From contig JAFQSD010000001.1 of assembly GCA_017409785.1 (NCBI GenBank), forward strand, positions 1 to 64,000: a stretch of DNA of 64,000 nt, written 5' to 3'. The notes under the pieces were generated by a model that saw nothing but the letters and a program-made list of their open reading frames with translations, was not told where the DNA came from and did no database searches. The translations under genes and the position numbers were made by a program. This DNA is from Bacilli bacterium (GTDB lineage: Bacteria > Bacillota_I > Bacilli_A > RF39 > UBA660). Positions 18,432 through 25,036 of the stretch are shown in pieces (the stretch's first letter is position 1; each line of letters starts with the position of its first letter).

Positions 18432-18462
18432 ATAAATGTATAAGAAGATAAGGATGTGTAGT

Positions 18463-21279
18463 ATGTTAAACAATAAAAAAGGTTTTACCTTAATTGAAAT
18501 TTTAGCAGCAATAACAATTCTAGGAATATTAATGGGAATTGCTATTGTCTCAGTAACAAAAGTAATTGAAAACGGAAAAAAGAAACATTATACAACAGCA
18601 GAAGCAAATATGGTTTTAGCTGGACAAAGTTATGTTCAACAAAATAGAGCTCAACTTCCTAAGGCGATCGGTCAAAAGAAAAAAATACCGATGTCTATGT
18701 TGATAGATAAAAATTATATTCAACCAATCAAGGATTATAGTGATAATGACTGTAATATGGCAGAGTCATACATTCAAGTATTTAAATATTCACAAAATGA
18801 TTATTCATATGTGTCATATCTTGAATGTCCAAACTATAATAGTCAAGAAAATATCAATGATATGACGCCGGAAATAAATGCCTCAATCGAAATTGATACA
18901 GATAATAGTAAGGCTAATGCCAAAATTACTATAACTGGAAATGATAAACTAATGAGTTACAGTTATATTATTTATCGTAATTCTAAAGAAGTTAAAAATA
19001 CTGGAAGCGTCGCAGTTAATGATTTTGCTGAAAGTAAATCAATTAACTTTTCTTTATCAGAATACACTCCAGGAGAAATCAAATTAGTTGTAACTGCTAC
19101 AAATACCTATGGAAACACAAAAACAAAAACAGTTACATCAAATGTACCAGATACAAAAAAACCAAAATGTGTTTATTTAGATACAGCAGATCAAGCTGAC
19201 AAAGAATGGACCTCAGAAAACAGAAAAATCACAGTAGGATGTGACGATGGAGAAACAGGTTCAGGTTGTACAAGAGAAACATATACAAAAACCTTTAAAT
19301 CTACAACAGATTATGATTACATAACAATTGAAGATGAAGATGGAAATAAAGAAAAATGTCGTGTAAGTGTCTTCGTTGATAAAACAGCCCCAAGTTGTAC
19401 AGACTCTGGAGATTCAAATAAATGGACAAGTGGAAACAGAACAATCAATTGGGGATGTAGTGATAGTCAATCAGGATGTGATGCAAGCTATTCTGGTGGC
19501 TCAACACCATTTACTACTACAACAAAAACAGCAACAATAGCTGCATATACAATAAAAGATAATGTTGGAAATACTAAAACATGCCCAGCAAGAACAGCCA
19601 ATGTATATGTAGATAAAACAGCCCCAAGTTGTACTGATTCAGGAGATTCAACAACATGGCAAAAAACTAATAGAACAATTAACTGGGGATGTAGTGATGG
19701 AACAAATCAATCAGGATGTGATTCTGATTATGATGGAGGCTCAACGCCATTTACAACTACAACAAAAACAGCGACAATATCAGCGTATACAATAAAAGAC
19801 AAAGTTGGAAATACAACAACATGTCCAGCAAGAACAGCCAATGTATATGTAGATAAAACAGCCCCAAGTTGTACTAATTCAGGTGATTCTACATCATGGA
19901 CAAATGGAAACAGAACAATCTATTGGGGATGTAGTGATGGAACAAATCAATCAGGATGTAATACAAGTTATTCCGGTGGCTCAACACCATTTACATCAAC
20001 AACAAAAACAGCAAGTATTGCAGCATATACAATCAAAGATAATGTAGGAAACTCAACAACATGTGATGCGAGAACAGCCAATGTATATGTAGATAAAACA
20101 GCTCCAACCTGTACTGATTCTGGTGATTCTACATCATGGACAAGTGGCAATAGAACAATCTATTGGGGCTGTAGTGATGGAACAAATCAATCAGGATGTA
20201 ATACAAGTTATTCTGGAGGCTCAACACCATTTACATCAACAACAAAAACATCTACCATTGCAGCATATACAATCAAAGATGCTGCAGGAAACACAACAAC
20301 ATGTGCAGCAAGAACAGCTAATGTATATGTAGATAAAACAGCACCAACAATTTCATCTATTTCTAACCCAACCGGTGGTGCTGCAACAGATACAGCTTTC
20401 TCATTAACGTTATATGGTTCTGATGGTCACTCAGGAATAGGAAAATGGAGATATAAATATGCTGCTTCGTCAACATGGACAGATTACTCATCTTCGAACA
20501 AATCACCATTTACAACAACTGCTTTCTCAGCAGTAAGAAACGAAGATGTATATATAAGCGTATGTGATGCAGTAGGAAATTGCTCATCACCGTCAACATC
20601 AAAAATATATATAGTAGCAGATTTATGTGCTAGTACAACAACAACCTGGTCAAATACATGGGGAGCATGTACTTCTTCAACAGGAGCAACATGTGGTGCG
20701 GGAACTCAAACAATGTCAGGTACAAAATATAGTACAATCAACACATCTCACTCATGTGGATCCGATAGTAAATCACAAGCATGTGATTTAGGCTCATGTA
20801 CAACACCAGTAAATGAGACGAAATATAGTGGATGTGACTCATATTACATTACTACATGTACAGGCGATACATGTACATATACTGAAAAGAATGGTAGACC
20901 AGAAACTGGTACAATATCATATAGTGCAGCAGTAGATACAATGAGTTCTTCATGTAACAAAAACTTCTGTAGTGCCAACTTAAATAGTACGAACGGAACG
21001 TACACATACTACTCAATTAGTAACTGTACAGTTTCAAGTTTTGGAGTTACAGCTGGAAATAATTGTTCAAAAGGAAGTAAGACAGGATCAAATACATTCA
21101 CTGTTAATATTTCATCAGCACCATCAACTGGAAAATGTCCAATTTGGGTTGAGACAAATGAACCATATAGAATTGCCAGTGGTGTAATTAAATATAGTGG
21201 TTCATGGAATACATATTATTGTGGTGAAGATAAGTTCTGTCCAGATTCTGGATGCAGCAGATGGTGTGTAAGTAAATAA
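18463..21279 (+). CDS. Giant prepilin-like surface protein with tandem Ig-like repeats
   Basis: The preferred start is ATG 18463 with AAGGA eight bases upstream; the frame is also open from ATG 18436. 938 residues. Leader MLNNKKG7, then F8TLIE12 and the same hydrophobic helix as the gene at 15476. The pseudopilin-like head is followed by a chain of Ig-like modules, four of which are near-identical ~80-residue tandem copies (DKTAPSCTDSGDS ... TIKDNVGN ... ARTANVYV). One more Ig-like module, one TSP1-like Cys-rich repeat (from about 20626) and a Cys-rich C-terminus follow. It is a paralogue of the upstream giant protein with a different repeat mix. Surface display through a prepilin-type pathway is inferred. 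Confidence 0.8.
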   Translation: MLNNKKGFTLIEILAAITILGILMGIAIVSVTKVIENGKKKHYTTAEANMVLAGQSYVQQNRAQLPKAIGQKKKIPMSMLIDKNYIQPIKDYSDNDCNMAESYIQVFKYSQNDYSYVSYLECPNYNSQENINDMTPEINASIEIDTDNSKANAKITITGNDKLMSYSYIIYRNSKEVKNTGSVAVNDFAESKSINFSLSEYTPGEIKLVVTATNTYGNTKTKTVTSNVPDTKKPKCVYLDTADQADKEWTSENRKITVGCDDGETGSGCTRETYTKTFKSTTDYDYITIEDEDGNKEKCRVSVFVDKTAPSCTDSGDSNKWTSGNRTINWGCSDSQSGCDASYSGGSTPFTTTTKTATIAAYTIKDNVGNTKTCPARTANVYVDKTAPSCTDSGDSTTWQKTNRTINWGCSDGTNQSGCDSDYDGGSTPFTTTTKTATISAYTIKDKVGNTTTCPARTANVYVDKTAPSCTNSGDSTSWTNGNRTIYWGCSDGTNQSGCNTSYSGGSTPFTSTTKTASIAAYTIKDNVGNSTTCDARTANVYVDKTAPTCTDSGDSTSWTSGNRTIYWGCSDGTNQSGCNTSYSGGSTPFTSTTKTSTIAAYTIKDAAGNTTTCAARTANVYVDKTAPTISSISNPTGGAATDTAFSLTLYGSDGHSGIGKWRYKYAASSTWTDYSSSNKSPFTTTAFSAVRNEDVYISVCDAVGNCSSPSTSKIYIVADLCASTTTTWSNTWGACTSSTGATCGAGTQTMSGTKYSTINTSHSCGSDSKSQACDLGSCTTPVNETKYSGCDSYYITTCTGDTCTYTEKNGRPETGTISYSAAVDTMSSSCNKNFCSANLNSTNGTYTYYSISNCTVSSFGVTAGNNCSKGSKTGSNTFTVNISSAPSTGKCPIWVETNEPYRIASGVIKYSGSWNTYYCGEDKFCPDSGCSRWCVSK
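19381..20334 (+). repeat. Four tandem Ig-like coding repeats (234, 240, 240, 240 bp)
   Basis: The border sequence AAAACAGC occurs at 19381, 19615, 19855, 20095 and 20335. Units share long identical stretches, such as the block around TATGTAGATAAAACAGC, so copy number could change by recombination in frame. Confidence 0.9.
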
Positions 21280-21293
21280 TAAATGGAGGATAT

Positions 21294-22139
21294 ATGGAAC
21301 TAAATAAATTTAATAGATTTTTGAAAATATTTATAGTTGTATTAACTACTATATTAGTTATTTCCATTATTGGACTTATTTTGGTAAATCAAGAAGAACC
21401 ACTAGAAATAAATGACTGCGTTAAAAAAGGCAATATCTGCTCTGCAGATGAAATATATAAAGGTGTAGAAGTAGAAATCGCTGTTAATGATAAAACAAAA
21501 CAGCGTTTCTACGTTATTTCCAATGACGAAAAAGAAATGACTTTAATGATGAACAAAAATATTGCTCCAAAAGTTGATTGGCATGATAATTTAATAAATA
21601 TATATGGACCAGACATTGCTTTAATTGAATTAAGCGAACGAACAAAATCATGGGATAATATATCGCTAATTTCCAACTTTAGTTATGATGATACTGGAAA
21701 AATATTATTTGAAACAAAGTGCCAAGGGGAAATTAAAGAACCAAATTATGACTGTTCAAACACAAAAATACCTGCTAGAGGTTATTATGGATTAAAAATT
21801 ATAAATGGAGAACTAATACAAAAAGCAAATGTTGTAGACAATCCGTTAGAAGATACTCTTTCTACAAACATGAGGGCGAGACTAGTCACAGTTGAGGAAA
21901 TTGATAATTTAGTTGTAAATAATGAACTACCAAAGTGGCTATTATCTAACTTAAATGAAAAGGAAGGTTATTGGACATTAACATCATCAATAGCTATGAA
22001 AAATAATTATTGTCAAGGGGCATTAGCAATAGCCAACGTAAATAAAAAGCCATCAATAGAAAGTTTATTTGTTCAATCAGAATATGAAGAAGGCTTTGAA
22101 ATTGGAATAAGACCAGTAATAACAGTTAATAAAAAATAA
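21294..22139 (+). CDS. Membrane-anchored protein of unknown function in the pilin-like locus
   Basis: 281 residues, ribosome site GGAGG, 14 bases after the giant gene. An N-terminal signal anchor spans residues ~10-31 (IFIVVLTTILVISIIGLILV). The exterior part has the ordered motifs QRFYVISND, GYWTLTSS and a final GIRPVITV, resembling the DUF6273-type domains often found beside prepilin-like proteins in gut Bacillota. That family name is from memory and unverified. Four cysteines suggest disulphides outside the cell. It probably works with the protein encoded upstream. Confidence 0.6.
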   Translation: MELNKFNRFLKIFIVVLTTILVISIIGLILVNQEEPLEINDCVKKGNICSADEIYKGVEVEIAVNDKTKQRFYVISNDEKEMTLMMNKNIAPKVDWHDNLINIYGPDIALIELSERTKSWDNISLISNFSYDDTGKILFETKCQGEIKEPNYDCSNTKIPARGYYGLKIINGELIQKANVVDNPLEDTLSTNMRARLVTVEEIDNLVVNNELPKWLLSNLNEKEGYWTLTSSIAMKNNYCQGALAIANVNKKPSIESLFVQSEYEEGFEIGIRPVITVNKK

Positions 22140-22162
22140 ACAGACGTAAAAGTCTGTTTTTT
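22138..22162 (+). terminator. Terminator closing the pilin-like locus
   Basis: AAACAGAC (22138-22145) pairs with GTCTGTTT (22152-22159), then T's. Confidence 0.85.
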
Positions 22163-22163
22163 A

Positions 22164-22193
22164 TTGAAACTATCTATTAAAAAGTAGTATAAT
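22164..22193 (+). promoter_or_regulatory. Promoter of the VanY-TruB fusion gene
   Basis: TTGAAA (22164-22169), 18-base spacer, TATAAT (22188-22193), about 25 bases before the start. Confidence 0.75.
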
Positions 22194-22217
22194 TAAGAGG
22201 CCAAAGAGGTGATGTAA

Positions 22218-23615
22218 GTGACTAATACAACTCTAATTAACAAAGATAATAAAATTAAAGAATCTTTTTATAAAAAAGTAAACTTTATTGATATAAAAGA
22301 TATCGATGGAAATGATACTAAAATAGAAAAAGAAACATATGAGAATTATCTAGAACTACAAGAATTCTTAAAAACAAAAAATATTATTATTGGAATTGAT
22401 TCAGCATATCGCAGTGAACAAAGACAATCTGAACTTTATCAAGAATTTATTGAGAGGTATGGAAAGGAATATGCTGATAAAATAGTAGCACCTGTAGGAA
22501 CAAGTGAACATCATTCTGGACTAGCCATAGACTTAGCTTTAAAAAGTAATAATGAATATCTAGATGCAGATATGGTTCATGAAGACCAAGAACCAATATA
22601 TAAAGAAGTGCATAAACACTTAAAAGACTTTGGTTTTATTTTAAGATATCCAGAAGGTAAAGAACACATCACAGGATACCCCTATGAACCATGGCATATC
22701 CGTTATGTAGGAAAATTTGTTGCCAAAATAATTTATGAAAAAAACTATACACTAGAAGAATATCTAACTGACTTTAGTGGAATCATCTTAGTTAATAAAG
22801 AAAAAGATATGACATCATTTGATGTTGTAAATGAAATTAGTCATTTATTTGGAATAAAAAGAGTAGGACATACAGGAACACTTGATCCTCTTGCAGAAGG
22901 AGTCCTACTAGTGGCTATTGGTAAAGCCACAAAAGTAGTAGAACTACTAACAGCTACATATAAAGAATATATTGCAACAGTAAAACTAGGTATTAAAACA
23001 GATACTCTTGATATTACTGGTAAAGTATTAGAACAAAATGAAGTACCTAACTTAGAAAATTTAGATGAAGTACTTAATAGTTTTAAAAAGACATATCTAC
23101 AAGAAGTACCAATATATTCAGCAGTAAAAGTTAATGGTAAAAAGTTATATGAATATGCTAGAAATAATGAACAAGTAGAACTACCAAAAAAAACAGTAAC
23201 AATTAAGGAAATAGAACTTCTAGATAAAACTGAAGATACATTTAAATTTAAAACACTTGTATCAAAAGGATGTTACATAAGAAGTCTAATCAACGACATT
23301 GGAAATGAATTAAATACATACGCTACAATGACAGAACTAACTAGAACAAAACAAGGTAAAGTTTCAATAGAAGAAACTAAAACTCTAAAAGATATAAAAA
23401 ATGGTAATTTTAAAATATATGAAATAGATGAAGTTTTAGAAATCCCCGTTATTGTAGTGGACTCTGTTCAAGAACAAAAAATTAGAACAGGACAAAAAAT
23501 AAATAACGATTATAACATTAAAGAAAAGGTAATATTTAAGGACCAAAATAATTTCATATTAGGAATATATGAATCAAAAGAAGGACTTTTAAGTGTTTGG
23601 AAAAACTTTGTATAA
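22218..23615 (+). CDS. truB: VanY-like carboxypeptidase fused to TruB pseudouridine-55 synthase
   Basis: A continuous 465-codon frame, GTG start at 22218 with AGAGGTGAT upstream. Residues 1-~185 are a VanY/peptidase M15B domain: SAYRSEQRQ, the zinc motif S96EHHSGLAID105 (His98, Asp105) and E157PWH160. Residues 188-465 are a complete TruB: GIILVNKEKDMTSFDVV, the catalytic GHTGTLDPLAEG (Asp223), Y-x-A-V-K-V-N-G-K, and a C-terminal PUA-like part. TruB makes pseudouridine 55 in tRNA; VanY trims D-Ala-D-Ala ends outside the cell. There is no signal peptide, so the peptidase half would be cytoplasmic. No stop, start or frameshift lies at the junction. Confidence 0.9.
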   Translation: MTNTTLINKDNKIKESFYKKVNFIDIKDIDGNDTKIEKETYENYLELQEFLKTKNIIIGIDSAYRSEQRQSELYQEFIERYGKEYADKIVAPVGTSEHHSGLAIDLALKSNNEYLDADMVHEDQEPIYKEVHKHLKDFGFILRYPEGKEHITGYPYEPWHIRYVGKFVAKIIYEKNYTLEEYLTDFSGIILVNKEKDMTSFDVVNEISHLFGIKRVGHTGTLDPLAEGVLLVAIGKATKVVELLTATYKEYIATVKLGIKTDTLDITGKVLEQNEVPNLENLDEVLNSFKKTYLQEVPIYSAVKVNGKKLYEYARNNEQVELPKKTVTIKEIELLDKTEDTFKFKTLVSKGCYIRSLINDIGNELNTYATMTELTRTKQGKVSIEETKTLKDIKNGNFKIYEIDEVLEIPVIVVDSVQEQKIRTGQKINNDYNIKEKVIFKDQNNFILGIYESKEGLLSVWKNFV

Positions 23616-23655: not shown

Positions 23656-23686
23656 ATGTCCACATATGAAAAAGGGGAGATTGAAT

Positions 23687-25036
23687 ATGGAAAATTTTGA
23701 AGGGTTTATAGATTATTATAAAATTTTAGGTGTGGATCGAAATGCTAGCGAAGAAGAAATAAAGGCTGCATATAGAGCAATGGCAAAAAAATATCACCCA
23801 GACCGTAATCCAGGTGATGACGAAGCTGCTCGAATAATGCAACAAGTTAACGCTGCATACGATGAAATTGGAAATGAATCAAAAAATAATAATAGAGTAC
23901 AATACAATAGAAAATACGATCAATACTATGCACAAAAACGTGCCCAAGAAGCAGAAAGAGCAAGAAGACAACAAGAAGCTGAATGGCAACGTCAACATCG
24001 TGCCCAAGAAGCAGAAAGACAACGTCAACAACGTAGTCAACACTCAAGTCAACGTGGATCACAATCAGGTCAAACACAATATAAAAGAGCTGCTTCGCGT
24101 TCAGGATATCATGGTAATGATTCTTCAAGTAAAAGATCTTCACAAACAGGTGCTAAGCACACTCAAAGTGGATTTAAATCAGCATTTGCCGATATAAGAA
24201 CAGCTTGGAAAGAAGTTCGTGAAGAAGAAAAGAAAATGCCATTCTTAAAAAGACATAGAAAAATAAATGGTGAAATCTACCGTAACATGTACAAAGAAAA
24301 TGGAAACGGTTTTGATGACTTCATTTATATTATCAAGAATGGTTCAATTCACGTTGCAATGGAAACATTATGGCAATTAGAGAAATTGACACATATTACT
24401 GAAGATTCAATTCCAAAATACGTAATCCGAAACCGTGCCTTGGCATATGCTCTAGTTTTAACAATGATTTTTTCTGGAGCAATAGCAAAAACTAATGATA
24501 ATGTATCTACTCCAACTAATGGAACATCAATTTCTCAACAAAAACAAGAAGAAAATCCAGGAGATATTGAAATTGATGATGGTACATATCAAGAAGAACA
24601 ACAAAGACAAGAAGAAGCAAAAGCTGAAAGAGATTACGTTGTTACACGTACATATGTAGTTCAACCAGGCGATTTCTTATCAGTTTTAGCAGTAGATGCT
24701 AATACTTCTGTAGAAGAAATTATGCGTTTAAATAATATAGAATCAGCAGATCACATTAAGTATGGAACAACATTATATATTCCATATGTAATTGATGGAG
24801 AAGATTTAAAATATGCAACAGTAGCAGCTTATTATGCACCAGGAACAGATATTAACGAATTTGCTAAAAAATATGGTACTGATGCAGCTTCAATTTATGC
24901 TTTAAACTATGAAGCATACGAAGATGGAAAACCTATTAGTGATACACTATTAGTTCCAACATGGGCTACACAAAGTGAAATAAAAGAACAAAAAGATACA
25001 CAAGCTAAAACTTATACTTATGGAAATAATCAATAA
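23687..25036 (+). CDS. J-domain / transmembrane / LysM protein
   Basis: Start ATG 23687 with AGGGGAG. 449 residues. The N-terminal J-domain (residues ~6-70: [30 protein letters not shown] with the HPD signature) would recruit DnaK. A Gln/Arg/Ser-rich linker (~75-160) and a basic soluble region follow. A single membrane helix lies near 250-268 ([17 protein letters not shown]), then an acidic linker, a LysM domain ([20 protein letters not shown] ... YGTTLYIP, ~317-363) and a second, degenerate LysM-like copy ending LLVPTW. The expected topology is J-domain inside, LysM outside on peptidoglycan. This combination is not a standard DnaJ form. Confidence 0.85.

Follow-up and report, generated by a model that had tools for sequence, protein, structure and literature searches.

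This genome, from a family of gut Bacilli with small genomes, encodes a genuine in-frame fusion of a leaderless VanXY-like M15B peptidase to TruB that is inherited in no fewer than 13 genera of the family. In the window analysed here (the whole 64,000-nucleotide stretch), positions 22218–23615 of the plus strand form one uninterrupted frame of 465 aa that starts with GTG and in which an M15B peptidase and a TruB are each complete. This looks like two working enzymes joined end to end long ago, with the peptidase half dying several times since, rather than a new pathway. The product is probably one cytosolic protein with two working enzymes and no obligatory coupling between them.

Architecture of the fusion gene and its junction

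The features of the locus are as follows (window coordinates).

22138–22159, plus strand: terminator-like hairpin behind the upstream gene (8-pair stem, then a T-rich tail)
22164–22193, plus strand: promoter-like TTGAAA-18-TATAAT immediately before the fusion gene (consensus only, 11 of 12 matches; promoter-like sites in the stretch are no more numerous than in shuffled sequence)
22204–22212, plus strand: ribosome-binding site AGAGGTGAT before the GTG, read from the sequence
22218–23615, plus strand: fusion gene, leaderless VanXY-like M15B peptidase plus TruB, 465 aa (frame, domain profiles, full-length homologues, AlphaFold model)
22218–22772, plus strand: N-terminal peptidase domain, residues 1–185 (Pfam VanY PF02557 at residues 35–166, E 1.7e-33, 115.7 bits against a gathering score of 25; NF000380 vanXY at residues 5–183, E 2.5e-39)
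22503–22532, plus strand: SEHHSGLAID motif with zinc ligands H98 and D105, both invariant in 36 fused proteins
22686–22697, plus strand: EPWH motif with catalytic E157 (kept in at least 90% of 36 fused proteins) and zinc ligand H160 (invariant)
22752–22799, plus strand: junction TLEEYLTDFSGIILVN, with no linker and no internal start in the sequence (helix 179–185 and strand 187–194 in the model)
22773–23612, plus strand: TruB domain, residues 186–465 (TIGR00431 TruB, 223.6 bits against a cutoff of 151.45; Pfam TruB_N PF01509 at 210–354, E 6.1e-50; TruB_C_2 at 355–395, E 2.2e-7, over the Pfam cutoff)
22884–22886, plus strand: aspartate D223 in GHTGTLDPLAEG, the catalytic residue in the TruB family (invariant among the 36 fused proteins aligned)

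A sequence-only reading of this DNA had proposed one frame joining both complete domains, retention of the peptidase metal residues and the lack of a signal peptide, and the frame, the Pfam matches and the residues themselves bear it out. The TruB half exceeded the curated TIGR00431 cutoff and keeps the aspartate of GHTGTLDPLA as D223. Four other proteins of the same genome (1.5 Mb) matched the fusion protein, all over the VanY half only, so the fusion is the only TruB found there. Its N-terminus, MTNTTLINKDNK, contains no hydrophobic stretch and no export signal. The AlphaFold model (mean pLDDT 92, pTM 0.85) retrieved E. coli TruB first in a fold search, with VanXYC (4oak) as the top peptidase for the N-terminal half. 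Zinc ligands H98, D105 and H160 and catalytic E157, which identify the M15B family, are all present in the window protein; the zinc-ligand role of H98 and D105 follows by homology to LdcB and VanXY (PMC4087270).

At the junction, the last peptidase helix (TLEEY) passes directly into the first TruB strand. Between the peptidase end and that strand the window contains no in-frame ATG, GTG or TTG; such a codon occurs at the junction in 7 of 43 fused genes and is accompanied by a Shine-Dalgarno-like site in 1 of 43. Since junction start codons are absent in the window and rare elsewhere, we infer that TruB is made as part of the fusion. An internal start releasing TruB, as the sequence-only reading had considered, finds no support in these counts. 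Upstream, the two nearest relatives (L006 and L007), whose genes both start with ATG, share the -10 box and the ribosome site.

The best NCBIfam profile of the peptidase half was vanXY (NF000380), at 134.7 bits and below its curated cutoff of 250. The LdcB profile (NF041194) scored 96.7 bits, below its cutoff of 275, and there is no export signal. The top PDB sequence matches were BaLdcB and BsLdcB (YodJ), with VanXYC among the best solved relatives. LdcB and VanXY differ in the loop that separates the zinc Asp from GFI (PMC4087270). This loop had a median of 34 residues in fused proteins, 32–36 in soluble forms and 25–31 in secreted forms; fused and soluble forms together spanned 32–38, with one decayed outlier at 27. 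The bisubstrate-selectivity loop counts 34 residues here versus 33 in VanXYC and 31 in BaLdcB (the last two counted by eye on alignments). The fusion peptidase resembles VanXYC and VanXYG, which are M15B D,D-dipeptidases/D,D-carboxypeptidases, in lacking a leader, in its full-length match over residues 5–183, in its zinc ligands and catalytic Glu, roughly in loop length and in being matched by fold; it differs in scoring under the model cutoff, in being fused to TruB and in the lack of a second D-Ala-D-X ligase among the genes found. With the M15B L,D-carboxypeptidases LdcB/DacB it shares the fold, the zinc motif and EPWH, whereas LdcB is extracellular, its zinc-Asp-to-GFI loop is shorter and its model cutoff was missed. 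The other half is a complete tRNA pseudouridine 55 synthase by profile and catalytic motif, unlike ordinary TruB in beginning inside a longer protein, without a start codon of its own.

Distribution of the join and origin of the peptidase half

A genome-collection scan returned full-length homologues with 52–85% identity in many independent metagenome assemblies, one of them named Candidatus Faecimonas gallistercoris (Bacilli incertae sedis). In a sample of the family, the same domain order, which had been suggested as something to seek in relatives, was present at full length in 18 of the 193 genomes, which come from 13 of the 148 genera, so not all relatives have two separate genes. Most of the remaining sampled genomes carried an ordinary TruB of ~290 aa. 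A class-wide sample of 247 genomes gave no fusion outside the family at E 1e-80, as a sample and not a proof. Both surveys are drawn samples, the trees depend on the sampled genera, and the relatives include metagenome assemblies. Because full-length fusions recur across independent genomes, the join is no assembly artefact.

Fused genes mostly lie in the usual truB surroundings of nusA, infB, rbfA, rpsO and pnp (identities by eye), and no wall genes were seen near fused loci in the neighbourhoods of relatives. The protein encoded at positions 23666–25036 of the window (456 aa) has a DnaJ domain at its N-terminus and a LysM domain at its C-terminus, and related J-domain proteins occur near the fusion in several relatives. 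The product of another window gene, at 18436–21279, is 947 aa long; it has a pilin-like methylation motif as well as long repeats that contain cysteine and are nearly identical to one another.

Among 75 peptidase domains placed on a tree, the fused ones grouped with leaderless stand-alone proteins from G011, G012, G015 and G002 at a fork supported at 100/98. All other stand-alone proteins of the tree fell on the other side; almost every one of these has a leader, and the leaderless L096 is placed there too. Many further leaderless stand-alone forms of ~180–200 aa occur in unfused genera. Judged by its sequence, the peptidase half belongs to a leaderless VanXY-like clade distinct from the secreted VanYs of the family. 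The four other VanY proteins of the window's own genome begin with hydrophobic leaders (by eye), and descent from one of them was rejected, as these secreted paralogues fall on the opposite side of the 100/98 fork. The idea that an exported VanY had been repurposed inside the cell therefore did not hold, the domain coming from a leaderless clade whose members are also found as separate genes. Divergent from the stand-alone leaderless vanY of G015 lies a gene (L105, 5794–6741) that appeared membrane dipeptidase (M19)-like by eye and had no NCBIfam match.

The leaderless domain was also fused, in separate events, to other partners. Fusions of the rRNA methyltransferase RlmD to VanY occur in genus g111 (L132, L167 and L168 in G110, G220 and G245; frames of 616–659 aa), and the G245 copy has lost its metal residues, leaving a dead active site. 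In G270 (L166/L170) a 115-aa ORF lies between RlmD and the peptidase, which are not fused; the peptidase ORF retains the RlmD tail at its start. A VanXY-like peptidase is fused to a HAD-family hydrolase in G114 (L123, 1501–2709), and Peptidase C26 is fused to a VanXY-like peptidase in G099 (L148, 2401–3687). In G011 and G094 (L106 and L153) vanY is a separate gene whose start is overlapped by the C26 gene, giving a C26-vanY link at 3 loci only, none of them with TruB. Among RlmD, HAD and C26, a pathway in common with the peptidase is obvious only for C26, of the gamma-glutamyl hydrolase family, namely stem-peptide breakdown; its co-occurrence across the family is uninformative because C26 is present in 80 of 117 genomes.

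Selection, decay and loss of the peptidase

Both halves are under purifying selection in the window's genus, with dN/dS of 0.12–0.14 for the peptidase and 0.12–0.16 for TruB, and the full active site is retained in most fused members. Seven sampled fusions have lost catalytic residues (L049 with QAGH, L061 with SPWH, and L035, L037, L036, L023 and L024), of which L035 and L037 have a common deletion. On the TruB tree the decayed fusions lay on several branches and required six label changes, at least five of them forced by well-supported branches. The seven correspond to about five lineages; a single event may account for both L023 and L024. Unfused L027, L038 and L041 were nested in the fused clade, adding three lineages without the peptidase. 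No pseudogene remains of it were recognisable by eye upstream of truB in these three, and the L027 TruB starts with MDNLKNYSG, which looks like a vestige of a fusion junction. The TruB tree, whose root is not fixed, is compatible with one gain and later decay and loss.

The L023 remnant, 95 aa without the metal site, was predicted to be a mostly well-folded mini-domain, with pLDDT of 84–93 over most of its length and 60–76 at the N-terminus and around residues 31–50. Remnant pairs gave dN/dS of 0.30–0.33 versus 0.15–0.19 in their TruB (rough values, as dS exceeded 1). Repeated decay with TruB intact argues against obligatory coupling, and the retention of constrained, fold-competent remnants could mean that they serve TruB structurally.

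Function of the fusion and competing explanations

In the account we favour, a stand-alone leaderless peptidase gene would have come directly before truB and been joined to it end to end. A single such event in some ancestor within the family is the simplest case, and TruB would have lost its own start. Because of that loss, peptidase loss would be limited to mutations that keep the start and junction, or to those creating a new start. The N-terminal half is predicted to be a leaderless VanXY-like M15B zinc carboxypeptidase/dipeptidase, most likely trimming the terminal D-Ala of cytosolic peptidoglycan precursors, of D-Ala-D-Ala or of stem peptides being recycled. The C-terminal half, the only TruB found in the genome, is predicted to make pseudouridine 55 in tRNA. 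Activities that need not be coupled would explain why the catalytic site decayed in some lineages with TruB intact. The genome carries Mur ligases and one Ddl and so makes peptidoglycan precursors; it also has an S66-family LdcA-like protein, so any L,D activity of the fusion peptidase could be redundant. A parallel is offered by ElsL, a leaderless YkuD-family protein that acts as a cytosolic recycling L,D-carboxypeptidase (PMC8649774). It too is a leaderless version of a usually exported wall-enzyme fold and shows that such folds can serve recycling, although the two folds are unrelated and the function is shown for ElsL and predicted for the fusion peptidase.

The dead domains kept under purifying selection as folded remnants would also suit recruitment of the M15 fold onto TruB, and separately onto RlmD, as a folded and eventually dead module that would serve the enzyme structurally, help to handle RNA or sense wall precursors, its peptidase activity incidental and being lost. 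RlmD, like TruB, is an RNA uridine-modifying enzyme, and one of its leaderless domains in g111 is dead. We nevertheless regard such co-option as unlikely: most fused members have a full active site, constraint on the peptidase matches that on TruB in close pairs including that of the window, three nested lineages manage without the domain, and it is C-terminal in the RlmD fusion and N-terminal in the TruB fusion. The linkerless junction, predicted with high confidence (pTM as above), would allow allostery, and hence a sensing enzyme in which wall-precursor binding by the M15 half tunes tRNA modification or chaperoning by TruB and couples translation to wall supply. That is quite improbable given that the ligand site decayed in several lineages with TruB retained and that wall genes were not seen near the locus.

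A glycopeptide-resistance VanXY that destroys D-Ala-D-Ala precursors would share the leaderless form and the best profile. The lack of a second ligase among the genes found makes it very unlikely: the genome (93.8% complete) has a single Ddl-family ligase and none of VanC/VanA type. The vanXY cutoff was missed as well, and no van genes lay among the neighbours read. That the related genomes with a record title are metagenome assemblies could raise suspicion of an assembly or gene-calling artefact, or of an internal start making a separate TruB; the identical join in many independent assemblies and the near absence of supported junction starts leave this hardly credible.

Rather than any of these, a cytosolic protein with two enzymes that need not be coupled remains our preferred reading. 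This work adds a lineage-wide domain architecture, for which a literature search on TruB plus VanY fusions returned nothing relevant and no earlier report. It also brings to light a clade of leaderless VanXY-like peptidases that shows no sign of any resistance operon, and "VanY" annotations in this family should not be taken to denote secreted proteins or resistance genes. Together, the stand-alone, fused intact, fused dead and peptidase-free forms constitute a natural series in which to test whether fusion implies functional coupling.
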